Part shown: positions 37,498-43,916 of the stretch, piece after piece
How positions within the stretch are numbered: position 1 is the first letter of the stretch
Layout of the letters: each line of letters starts with the position of its first letter
DNA from: Arthrobacter globiformis
Lineage (GTDB): Bacteria > Actinomycetota > Actinomycetes > Actinomycetales > Micrococcaceae
Direction: 5' to 3'
Assembly (NCBI RefSeq): GCF_003261175.1
Contig: NZ_QLNP01000017.1
Location: 62,001-126,000, forward strand
Length of the DNA stretch: 64,000 nt
Notes under the pieces: generated by a model
Told to the model about the DNA's origin: nothing
Seen by the model: only the letters and a program-made list of their open reading frames with translations
Databases searched by the model: none
Translations under genes and position numbers: made by a program

Positions 37498-37648
37498 CCG
37501 CCGTTGCAACCTGCTCCTCAGCAACTGCCGGACGTCATGAAGAGCCAGCGGGACTCCGCCGGATAGAGCCGCAGGGCCGCCCTGACCTCGTGCGACGCCG
37601 TCACAGCTTGAGTACCGCACGACGTAACAGGCGCCTGGACGGTTTTAC

Positions 37649-37667
37649 TTAGGCAAGCCTTAACTAA
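37649..37667. promoter_or_regulatory. DtxR/IdeR-type iron box
   Basis: The 19-base site TTAGGCAAGCCTTAACTAA agrees with the DtxR/IdeR consensus TTAGGTTAGSCTAACCTAA at most positions. It overlaps the putative -10 (TAATAT, 37665-37670) of the gene starting at 37680. Iron-loaded repressor should therefore block transcription when iron is plentiful. Confidence 0.8.
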
Positions 37668-37679
37668 TATCCTCTTCCG

Positions 37680-40238
37680 GTGACCACGCAGCTTGATTTC
37701 GCGCGGGTGCCCTTCGCCGCCGATCTGGCCGGCCACGGGGACAGGCCCGCCGTTATTTCCGACAATTTCACTCTCACCTACCGGGACCTGGTGCGCAGGG
37801 TTGATGCGCTCGCCCTCCGGCTGGGCACGCAGCGGCGCCTCGTGGCACTGGCTGCAGCGAACGACGTCGACTCGCTGGTCGCCTATCTCGCCGCCCTGGT
37901 CGGCGGCCACCCGCTGATCCTGCTGCCGGAGGACAAGCCGGCGGCACTCGAGTCCCTGGTGGCCGCGTACGACCCGGATGTCGTGCTGCGCTCCGCCAAC
38001 GGGGAGACCGTGTTTGAGGAGCGCAGGCCCGGAACCAGGCACGAACTCCATCCGGACCTCGCACTGCTGCTCAGCACGTCCGGTTCCACGGGTTCGCCCA
38101 AGCTGGTGCGCCTGTCCTCCGCCAACCTGCAGGCCAATGCGGAGTCGATTGCCGAGTACCTGGACATCGGCCCGGCAGACCGCGCCGCAACCACTCTGCC
38201 GGTGTCCTACTGCTACGGGCTATCCGTAATCAACAGCCACCTGCTGCGCGGTGCAGGCCTGGTGCTCACGGACCTGTCCGTTGTTGACCCGTGCTTCTGG
38301 GAGCTTTTCCGTACCGGCGGGGCGACGTCGTTCGCGGCGGTGCCGTACACCTTCGAACTGCTGGAGCGGGTGGGCTTTGCCGATATGGACCTCCCCAGCC
38401 TGCGCTATGTCACGCAGGCGGGAGGCCGGCTTGCCCCCGAACGAGTGCAGAGCTACGCCGAACTCGGCCGGCGGAAGGGCTGGGAGCTGTTCGTGATGTA
38501 CGGCCAGACTGAGGCCACCGCCCGGATGGCCTACCTTCCGCCCGCGCTGGCCGCCGAGCACCCCGGCGCCGTCGGCATCCCGGTGCCGGGTGGCGCCTTC
38601 CGCATCGAGCCGGTTGACGGCCTCGAGGACGGCGAACTCGTCTACACCGGGCCCAATGTCATGCTCGGCTACGCCGAGACACCGGAAGATCTCGGCGCCG
38701 GCCGCACGGTCCACGAACTCCGCACCGGCGATCTGGCCCGGAAACACCCCGCGGGCGTCTATGAAGTGGTCGGGCGGCGCAGCCGGTTCGTCAAGATCGT
38801 TGGCCTCCGGGTCGACCTCGGCCAGGTGGAGCGCATCCTGGGCGATCTCGGCGTCGAAGCGGCGAGTGCCGGAACCGACCAGGGACTCGTGGTCGCCGTC
38901 GAGGGCAGCCACGACACCCAGCTGCTGTCCAAGGTCCTTGCCCAGGGCATCGGGCTGCCGCGTGCGGCCCTGGAGCTGCACGCCGTCGAGCATCTCCCCC
39001 GCCTGGCCACCGGAAAGGTGGACTACCCGGCGGTCCTGGCGCTCTCAACACCAGCGCTCTCTGAGACGGCGCCGGCCGGTGCCGGGGCGGACGGCTCCGG
39101 GACGGACCGCTCAGGACCGGACAACGTGCGGCGGATCTTCCGGGACACCCTGGAGCGCACCGACATCGGAGACAGCGACACGTTCGTTTCGCTCGGCGGC
39201 GACTCGCTGTCATACGTGGCCACTTCCGTACGCCTGGAGCAGCTGCTGGGGCACCTCCCGCCGAACTGGCATGTGACGCCGGTCCGCGACCTGGAACAGC
39301 GCACGGACCGGAAAACTGGCGGAACGATGCGGCGGTTCTTTGCCCCGGTCGAGACCAGCATCGTGCTGAGGGCGGTGGCGATTGTGCTCATCGTCGGTAC
39401 CCACGTGGGGCTGATGAAATGGCCGGGCATGGCCCATGTGCTCATGGCGGTGGCCGGCTACAACTTTGCCCGGTTCCAGCTCAGCGGGGAACGGCGTCCC
39501 CGGTTCAGGCGGCAGCTCACCAGCGTCGCCAGGGTGGCGCTGCCCAGCATGGCGTTCATCGGAGTGGCCTACCTGATCACCGACCGGTATACGCTGGCCA
39601 ATGTCCTGCTCCTGAACTCCATCGTCGGGCCGGAAGCTGTGACCACGGAGTGGCACTTCTGGTTCATCGAGGTGCTGGTCTACATCCTCCTGGGCATGAC
39701 GGCCCTGCTGGCCATACCCTGGGCGGAACGGGCGGAGCGGCGGTTCCCGCTGCTCTTTCCGCTTGCCCTTACGGGCCTCGCGCTGCTCGCGCGCTACGAC
39801 ATCGTGGATCCGGGTGTACCCCACCCGTCGCCGACCCTGTGGCTGTTCGTCCTGGGTTGGGCCGTTGCCCGGACCCGGACGGTGGTTCAGCGGTGCGCGG
39901 TGTCAGTCCTCGCGATCCTCACGGTGCCCGGGTGCTTCTTCGGGGATACGAACCGTGAGCTGACTCTTGTTGCCGGAATCCTGCTGCTCACCTGGCTGCC
40001 CACCCTTCCCGTGCCCAGGGGGCTGCAGCGCCTGACAGTGCTCCTGGCCAGCGCCTCCCTCTACGCGTACCTGGTGCACTGGCTGGTCTACCCGCTGCTG
40101 GCCGCAACCAGCCCGGTCCTTGCCGTGGCGGCGTCCCTGGCGGCCGGCGTGTCCTACTGGGCGCTATGCACTCGGGTCATGGGCCTGTTGAGCCGGAGTG
40201 GCTGGCGGCCGTTCCGCGGAAGGCTCAAGCAGCCGTAA
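37680..40238 (+). CDS. Adenylation domain-carrier-membrane acyltransferase fusion
   Basis: The 852-residue protein joins three parts. Residues 1-455 are an AMP-forming adenylation domain: A3 motif LSTSGSTGSPK at 131-141, YGQTEAT near 274, TGD at 349-351, and the catalytic lysine Lys446 in ATGKVDY. Residues 480-545 are a peptidyl-carrier domain with the phosphopantetheine serine Ser509 in GGDSLSYV. Residues 555-845 are a polytopic acyltransferase-3-like membrane domain, with His575 in GTHVG and about ten helices. It should activate an acid, load it onto its own carrier, and transfer it at or across the membrane. It starts with GTG almost at the predicted transcription start, and the iron box implies induction by iron starvation. 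The substrate is unknown. Confidence 0.85.
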   Translation: MTTQLDFARVPFAADLAGHGDRPAVISDNFTLTYRDLVRRVDALALRLGTQRRLVALAAANDVDSLVAYLAALVGGHPLILLPEDKPAALESLVAAYDPDVVLRSANGETVFEERRPGTRHELHPDLALLLSTSGSTGSPKLVRLSSANLQANAESIAEYLDIGPADRAATTLPVSYCYGLSVINSHLLRGAGLVLTDLSVVDPCFWELFRTGGATSFAAVPYTFELLERVGFADMDLPSLRYVTQAGGRLAPERVQSYAELGRRKGWELFVMYGQTEATARMAYLPPALAAEHPGAVGIPVPGGAFRIEPVDGLEDGELVYTGPNVMLGYAETPEDLGAGRTVHELRTGDLARKHPAGVYEVVGRRSRFVKIVGLRVDLGQVERILGDLGVEAASAGTDQGLVVAVEGSHDTQLLSKVLAQGIGLPRAALELHAVEHLPRLATGKVDYPAVLALSTPALSETAPAGAGADGSGTDRSGPDNVRRIFRDTLERTDIGDSDTFVSLGGDSLSYVATSVRLEQLLGHLPPNWHVTPVRDLEQRTDRKTGGTMRRFFAPVETSIVLRAVAIVLIVGTHVGLMKWPGMAHVLMAVAGYNFARFQLSGERRPRFRRQLTSVARVALPSMAFIGVAYLITDRYTLANVLLLNSIVGPEAVTTEWHFWFIEVLVYILLGMTALLAIPWAERAERRFPLLFPLALTGLALLARYDIVDPGVPHPSPTLWLFVLGWAVARTRTVVQRCAVSVLAILTVPGCFFGDTNRELTLVAGILLLTWLPTLPVPRGLQRLTVLLASASLYAYLVHWLVYPLLAATSPVLAVAASLAAGVSYWALCTRVMGLLSRSGWRPFRGRLKQP

Positions 40239-42392: not shown

Positions 42393-43916
42393 TCAGTCCT
42401 GGAAGTACTCGATCTTGGCGCCGATGGTGTTGAGCCGCTCCGCGAGGTCCTCGTAGCCGCGCTCAATGACGTAGATGTTGCGCAGCTCGGAAACTCCGCG
42501 GGCCGCCAGCATCGCCAGGAGGAGGCAGGCGGCGGGACGCAGCGCGGGCGGGCAGCCAACCTCAGCGGCACGCCAGCGCGTGGGGCCGTTGACATAGATG
42601 CGGTGTGGGTCCAGCAGCTGGACCCGGGCACCCAGCTTGTTCAGCTCCGTCAGGTAGATCGCACGGTTCTCGTAGACCCAGTCGTGGATCATGGTCTGGC
42701 CCTCGGCGTTGCCCGCGATCACCGCGAAGAACGGCAGGTTGTCGATGTTCAGCCCGGGGAACGGCATCGGGTGGATCTTGTCCTCCGGCGCGCGCAGCTC
42801 GGAGGGCTTCGTGGTCACGTCCACCAGCCGGGTGCGCCCGTTGCGGGCCATGTACTCGCCGGAGACCTCCAGCCGCTGGCCCATCTGCTCCAGGGTGGCC
42901 AGCTCGATCTCCATGAATTCGATGGGCACCCGGCGGATGGTCACCTCTGAGTTGGTGACAATGCCGGCGGTGATGAGGCTCATCGCCTCGATGGGGTCTT
43001 CCGAGGGGAAGTACTCGATGTCGACGTCGATGGTCGTTTTGCCGGTGATCTTCAGCGTGGTGGTTCCGACGCCCTCGATCTCCACGCCCAGCCGCTGCAG
43101 GTAGAAGCAGAGGTCCTGGACCATGTAGTTGGGGCTGGCGTTGCGGATGACCGTGGTGCCGCAGCGGTGGGCGGCGGCCATGATGGCGTTCTCCGTAACG
43201 GTGTCGCCGCGCTCGGTCAGCACGAAGGACCTGTCAAGTTGGTCCGTGGGAGGTGCCTGCACGCTGTAGAAGCCCGAGCTGGCCTCAACGGACAGACCGA
43301 ACTGCCGCAGTGCCTGCATGTGCGGCTCAACGGTCCGGATACCCAGATCGCAGCCGCCGGCGTAGGGCAGCCGGTATTCATCGGTCACATCAAGCAGCGG
43401 ACCCAGCAGCATGATGACGCTGCGGGTCCGGCGCGCAGCCTCGGCGTCCATGGAGGCCAGGTCGAGATTCGCGGGCCGGCGGAGGCGGAGGTCGTTGTCG
43501 TTGAGCCAGGTGCATTCGACGCCGATGCTGCTAAGAACCTCGACGATTCGGTTGACTTCCTCGATGCGGGCCAGCCGGCGCAGCGTCGTGGTGCCGCGGT
43601 TGATGAGGCTGGCACACAGAAGAGCGACCCCGGCGTTCTTGCTGGTGTTGACGTCGACGGACCCCGACAGCGTCCTGCCGCCCTCGACGCGGAGGTGGGT
43701 CATCTGCGATTTGCCGAGCTGGACAAAGCTGCGGCCGAAGATGGCCTCCAGGCGCTGGATCATTTTCAGGCTCATGTTTTGCTTGCCTTGTTCCATGCGG
43801 GCCACGGCGCTTTGGCTGGTGCCGAGTTCCGCGGCCAACTGGCCCTGGGTCCACCCCTTCTGACCGCGGGCGTCGCGGAGCAGAAGACCAACATGTTCAA
43901 CAGTCTGTTGTGTCAT
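42393..43916 (-). CDS. murA: MurA-like UDP-GlcNAc enolpyruvyl transferase with N-terminal HTH
   Basis: The 507-residue protein combines an XRE-type helix-turn-helix (residues 9-63: [20 protein letters not shown]) with a full MurA domain from about residue 73. The catalytic lysine is Lys93 in [11 protein letters not shown] and the PEP-attacking cysteine, equivalent to Cys115 of E. coli, is Cys189 in [14 protein letters not shown]. MurA performs the first committed step of peptidoglycan synthesis. The fusion may allow self-regulation through DNA binding. TATATT lies exactly six bases before the ATG, so the transcript is probably leaderless. It could be a paralogue of a stand-alone MurA elsewhere. 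Confidence 0.9.

Follow-up and report, generated by a model that had tools for sequence, protein, structure and literature searches.

What is known of systems that resemble a single gene joining an adenylation domain, a carrier domain and a membrane acyltransferase under an iron box? DltA-DltC-DltB, which D-alanylates teichoic acids, works by a comparable logic: an adenylation (A) domain loads a carrier, and a membrane acyltransferase moves the acid outward. The ferric importer FbpABC/SfuABC/FutABC is usually described as an importer alone, taking up iron unaided. The gene discussed here, which encodes an adenylation-carrier-acyltransferase-3 (AT3) fusion protein, lies in a 64-kb window (the whole stretch of DNA that was analysed, on contig G000:C79 of a 4.88-Mb genome in 88 contigs) whose closest named relatives, judged by the fusion protein, are Arthrobacter and Pseudarthrobacter (Micrococcaceae). 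We give roughly even odds (about 0.5) to the reading that it encodes an iron-starvation enzyme working alongside FbpABC, probably by producing an Fe(III) ligand that is small or bound to the surface. An iron-boxed enzyme beside ferric importers in several actinobacterial groups suggests that a step is missing from the picture of unaided import, and would give the fused architecture its first role. With one gene and readable domain logic, the acid, the acceptor and the role are directly testable.

Like the Dlt system, the fusion protein would combine an A-domain-loaded carrier with outward transfer by a membrane acyltransferase, but it does so in one chain, compared with three or more in Dlt, has a cysteine at the amine-binding position, and is encoded by a gene with an iron box and often a ferric importer nearby. 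Its membrane part matches AT3 (Pfam Acyl_transf_3, PF01757) and no MBOAT model, the family of DltB, so that the comparison with DltA-DltC-DltB drawn in an earlier note on this DNA stands as an analogy only. With AT3 acyltransferases such as OafB and OatA, and with the HGSNAT fold, it shares PF01757, the R-X10-H motif and a predicted transmembrane acyltransferase-like structure; unlike OafB, which is described as using acyl-CoA, it brings its own A-carrier pair, and it has no SGNH domain. The AT3 fusions named in the available part of PMC9833829 are to SGNH and alanine racemase domains and to others in Eukarya, the A-carrier pair not being among them. The A domain has VinN (a 3-methylaspartate ligase), oxalyl-CoA ligase, MenE and TIGR03098 among its closest solved or curated relatives, scoring 142.4 bits against TIGR03098 (exosortase-associated acyl ligase), below the cut-off of 592.35. 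The desferrioxamine tailoring operon desJGH of Streptomyces coelicolor is likewise iron-boxed, was found through its iron boxes and includes an acyltransferase in iron acquisition, although that acyltransferase is DesC-like and of a different kind (PMC12161575, in the part available). The S. coelicolor iron-regulon section of that paper does not list such a fusion gene. We found no description of a fused adenylation-carrier-AT3 protein, or of its pairing with an importer, in the open-access literature; print elsewhere is possible.

The link of the enzyme to iron uptake is strongly supported by gene order in its relatives, where genes for an extracellular binding protein, a permease and an ATPase are neighbours. 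A tblastn search placed both fbpA and fbpB no more than 5 kb from the enzyme gene in 42 of 80 actinobacterial loci, and in 37 of the 71 that have 3.5 kb or more of flanking sequence on each side; the 80 include the window and two loci cut at a contig end (L112 and L133), and further same-genome repeats are possible. L100 was taken as a repeat of L045, and L080 as one of L040; both are left out of linkage and box counts and kept in the alignment, which has 82 actinobacterial rows. The importer is upstream and co-directional in 25 of the linked loci, divergent in 9, downstream and co-directional in 6 and convergent in 2; on a quick tree this arrangement changes at least six times, so the linkage has persisted or re-formed through rearrangements. 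It extends across Streptomyces, Mycolicibacterium, Nocardioides, Lentzea and Micrococcaceae. Neither the 18 proteobacterial fused relatives (14 with 3.5 kb on both sides) nor the 21 A-domain relatives outside the fused family (15 with 3.5 kb on both sides) show it. The earlier note saw no siderophore cluster around the gene; this fits the window as read but misses the ferric importer that adjoins the gene in the linked loci. Its suggestion of a siderophore, polysaccharide or lipid did not foresee the importer, which narrows the choice to an iron-uptake context.

With a ferric-binding protein, a permease with two transport domains and an ATPase, the neighbour importer appears to be a member of the FbpABC class; Pfam was run on the complete set of one locus (L048) and on two proteins of another (L071). 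The operons are similar in sequence to FbpABC/SfuABC/FutABC, whereas the importer here often stands beside a biosynthetic-type enzyme. The top solved relatives of the binding protein are ferric-binding proteins (7li0, 2e-84), the H-Y-Y motif is kept unchanged in 44 of 44 aligned binding proteins, and no NCBIfam model reached its cut-off for those encoded beside the enzyme. The window's genome carries its fbpA at another locus (C6:63275-64339, minus strand). An iron box stands 62 bases ahead of this open reading frame (ORF), which is strongly similar to SfuA (1.1e-140); its product, and the FbpA of L060, have a lipobox-like start as read from the sequence. Opposite-strand ORFs beside the gene ("clusters 2 and 8") were treated as ORF-caller artefacts, tblastn placing FbpC there in the compared loci. 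Genome G176 has two enzyme copies (L045 and L044), each iron-boxed, one behind fbpABC and one without it.

The second line of evidence is the iron box itself. TTAGGCAAGCCTTAACTAA ends 12 bases before the GTG start and is the sole match to TTAGGNNAGSCTNNCCTAA in the window at up to three mismatches. Two controls limit its weight: 20 of 100 window shuffles gave a TTAGGNNAGSCTNNCCTAA match at the same tolerance, and genome-wide, at up to two mismatches, the backwards control had 5 hits per strand against 3 per strand for the pattern. Taken alone the box is modest evidence, and a chance match, which the single site could not exclude, was ruled out solely by conservation among relatives. There the box recurs at a similar position, its first base in many about 31 bases before the match. 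A score of at least 11 of 15 upstream of the gene (-200 to +30) is reached by 56 of the 80 actinobacterial loci, among which the window is counted; of 4000 shuffles, which are Markov samples of the same dinucleotides and not exact permutations, 74 reach it. At a score of at least 12 the counts are 49 of 80 and 6 of 4000, at 13 or more 34 of 80 and 1 of 4000; random windows from the same loci, which may contain true boxes, reached 11 in 28 of 1600. Among the 24 loci scoring below 11, 20 follow a co-directional fbp operon whose fbpA could be seen; for 19 of the 20, a slightly wider stretch around fbpA (310 bases) contains a box scoring 11 or more. The contig of L065 starts partway through such an operon. 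In L049, L070 and L085 neither the gene nor an operon head is boxed, L085 offering just 1.5 kb of sequence per side. A box at the gene or at the operon head is thus present in 75 of the 80 loci.

PF02742, of the DtxR family, has two matches above cut-off in the window's genome; since 11 of 14 control genomes also match it, finding it here is no surprise. It is likely that a DtxR/IdeR-family regulator represses the gene when iron is plentiful, and the iron control proposed in the earlier note is supported by the conserved box and the two regulator matches. Its description of the site, 19 bases long and 12 before the GTG, was accurate; the overlap with a possible -10 element, TAATAT, can be seen by eye, but a sigma-70 scan found no full promoter. 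Spacing is similar in L006 and L018. Since TAATAT stands 9 bases before the GTG and there is no evident Shine-Dalgarno sequence, a leaderless start is suggested.

Pairing of enzyme and FbpA can also be followed across whole genomes. At E <= 1e-60, 50 of the 295 family genomes sampled have the enzyme, as do 44 of 246 at the level of the class, four of which (G454, G424, G373 and G388) match the A domain only. Nineteen of the 295 family genomes have the FbpA type of L048, and every one of them is among the 50 with the enzyme. FbpA of either of two types occurs in all 50 enzyme genomes (G288 with a weak match only, 35% identity) and in 78 of 245 others, figures that are uncorrected for relatedness and to be read with the knowledge that linked operons travel together. 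All 24 sampled genomes of the window's genus have either type (the second in 23, the first in the remaining one), so FbpA is uninformative within that genus. In genus g6, among the genomes listed, FbpA is present in 6 of 6 with the enzyme and 0 of 13 without. Could the enzyme be a replacement for siderophores? This was ruled out: nonribosomal peptide synthetase-independent siderophore (NIS) genes are found in 28 of the 50 enzyme genomes and 87 of the 245 others (Fisher p 0.01), and one is present in the window's genome too.

How might such a protein work? Pfam bears out the three domains that the earlier note had read in the 852 residues: AMP-binding (residues 14-331, E 9.3e-44, 150.2 bits against a cut-off of 29.9), PP-binding (483-524, E 1.4e-5, 25.7 against 20.8) and Acyl_transf_3 (562-814, E 2.9e-8, 33.6 against 31); at E <= 0.1 these are the only matches, with no Condensation or thioesterase domain. 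PF01757 was matched at E <= 0.01 in 35 of 36 sequences. Lys446, Ser509, Arg564 and His575 are unchanged throughout a 21-sequence alignment. Across the actinobacterial rows Lys446 is kept in 81 of 82 (the remainder gapped), Ser509 in 79 (3 gapped), and the R564/H575 pair in transmembrane helix (TMH) 1 in 78 (4 gapped), as well as in 18 of 18 proteobacterial rows. RRPR and RFRR at 605-611 are candidates for the RXXR motif of AT3 proteins, on the cytoplasmic face of TMH3; actinobacterial rows have R608 in 71 of 82 cases (6 gapped), proteobacterial rows in 0 of 18 (11 gapped). The full-length AlphaFold2 model, from a 36-sequence alignment, has a mean pLDDT of 86.3 and a pTM of 0.54, so the domains are well modelled and their mutual packing is not; the AT3 part modelled alone (pLDDT 92.3, pTM 0.89) resembles a transmembrane acyltransferase of HGSNAT-like fold on structure comparison. 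Domains, catalytic residues and this predicted fold support a single-chain machine that would activate an acid and transfer the acyl group at the membrane, in agreement with the one-gene system first proposed.

The residues of the acid-binding pocket narrow the substrate class. Cys178 aligns with the aspartate of LgrA and with the amine-binding aspartate of VinN (GrsA position 235), the mark of alpha-amino-acid adenylation domains, which is not present here; cysteine occupies the position in 78 of the 82 actinobacterial rows and serine or threonine in the other four. The A5 motif of aryl-acid adenylation domains, for dihydroxybenzoate (DHB) or salicylate, is QQVxFMAEGL (PMC11253843, in the part available). 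That of the fusion protein, FVMYGQTEATAR, does not match it. In the A5 region M273, Y274, G275, E278, A279 and T280 are invariant across the actinobacterial rows, 81 of which also have T277; at position 276, Q occurs in 60 rows and A in 22. Alpha-amino-acid and aryl-acid substrates were both ruled out by these pocket residues, and the adenylated substrate is probably a small carboxylic acid of another kind.

The iron role does not extend to the entire family, a possibility ruled out because the proteobacterial fused relatives and the A-domain relatives outside the fused family have no fbp genes nearby and because a box score of at least 11 is reached by 0 of the 18 and 1 of the 21, respectively. 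The actinobacterial clade, with an SH-aLRT support of 100, appears to be the iron branch of a fused architecture that is broader than its iron role. The tree, which has several long branches, takes 13 of the 18 proteobacterial and 5 of the 21 A-domain relatives, and omits L100, L080, L085, L110, L112, L133, L065, L136, L144 and L038. Twenty of the 21 A-domain relatives are under 500 residues as translated, the other (L154) having 662.

The domain set, catalytic residues, conserved boxes and fbpABC linkage can be read directly from the sequences, and a working scheme can be built on them. With iron plentiful, a DtxR/IdeR-family regulator would repress the gene, and starvation would release it to act with the ferric ATP-binding cassette importer (FbpA binding lipoprotein, FbpB permease, FbpC ATPase). 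The cytoplasmic A domain would activate a small carboxylic acid and load it onto the enzyme's own carrier serine, and the AT3 domain would probably pass the acyl group to an acceptor, at or across the membrane. As to that acceptor and the product, our guess is an Fe(III)-binding ligand that is secreted as a small molecule or else attached to the envelope as a group, and that might hand iron to FbpA. Taken more widely, and more tentatively, this could be a widespread undescribed form of actinobacterial iron acquisition, in which a ferric importer is joined by a dedicated one-gene acylation enzyme that turns a common carboxylic acid into an Fe(III) ligand acting at the cell surface or over a short range, with no multi-gene siderophore pathway of its own.

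We rank an Fe(III)-ligand product ahead of three other explanations as a best guess. The one that survives best, though we consider it rather unlikely, is that the iron-starved enzyme acylates a wall polymer, glycolipid or lipid, and that a shift in surface charge eases Fe(III) to FbpA. AT3 proteins acylate diverse carbohydrates, O-antigen and peptidoglycan included, according to the available part of PMC9833829. Neighbour clustering found no further gene common to more than close relatives, which may mean that the acceptor is a permanent part of the cell, and an A-domain relative sits in the L145 cluster with glycosyltransferase, DegT, carrier, SDR, LuxE and LuxC genes; the pairing with fbpABC, however, is more specific than a general envelope change requires. 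A conventional small siderophore, in which the acid is joined to a soluble amine or alcohol and released, the iron complex being re-imported through FbpABC, is less probable still. The iron box and adjoining importer speak for it, and A and carrier domains are, as is generally known, common siderophore logic, but the protein has no Condensation or thioesterase domain and no aryl-acid motif, the clustering, which did not look for exporters or siderophore reductases by name, gave no further common neighbour, and the binding protein of the importer belongs to the ferric-ion type. Very improbable is that the enzyme modifies the importer, for example by acylating the FbpA lipoprotein or a membrane partner and so switching it on: pairing in four gene orders and the lipobox-like FbpA starts would suit this, but to our knowledge FbpA proteins elsewhere require no acylation step, the fused family occurs in Proteobacteria without fbp, and the targets described for AT3 proteins are carbohydrates and antibiotics (PMC9833829, in part).

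Table 1. Positions in the window of the fusion gene, its domains and key codons, and the upstream elements.
Feature	Position	Strand	Remarks
DtxR/IdeR-type iron box	37649..37667	+	TTAGGCAAGCCTTAACTAA; 14/15 fixed consensus positions, 1 mismatch
TAATAT, possible -10	37665..37670	+	read by eye; overlaps box end; 9 bases before GTG
Fusion coding sequence, adenylation-carrier-AT3 membrane acyltransferase	37680..40238	+	GTG start; 852 residues; from ORF list
Adenylation domain	37719..39047	+	residues about 14-456
Cys178 of adenylation domain	38211-38213	+	
Arg282 of adenylation domain	38523-38525	+	
Lys446 of adenylation domain	39015-39017	+	
Carrier domain	39120..39302	+	residues about 481-541; Pfam PP-binding
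Carrier Ser509 codon	39204-39206	+	within GGDSL
AT3 transmembrane acyltransferase domain	39324..40235	+	residues 549-852; R-X10-H = R564/H575

In two sphingomonads a second, stand-alone AT3 gene directly follows the fused enzyme (L117:10565-11650 and L129:10620-11735), as if two membrane transferases worked in series. Rhizobiales fused genes (L111, L113, L116, L121, L139 and others) share neighbours with close relatives only, as judged by clustering. The A-domain relatives outside the fused family (among L135-L157) are often beside small carrier, SDR, LuxE and LuxC genes, which were annotated in L145, the locus scanned gene by gene; its clusters recur beside others of these relatives. Together with DegT in L145 and NeuB in L140, these genes suggest a glycan-type acyl cluster. 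Within the window, positions 42393-43916 on the minus strand encode what reads as a MurA-like protein with an N-terminal helix-turn-helix extension; no iron box was found there in the window scan, and in S. coelicolor an iron box lies beside murA2 (PMC12161575, in the part available). Elsewhere in the window's genome, an iron-box-like site with two mismatches (G000:C67:100647-100665, or L037:1501-1519) stands just before an ORF that, from L037:1577 onward, resembles an extracellular solute-binding lipoprotein by eye.
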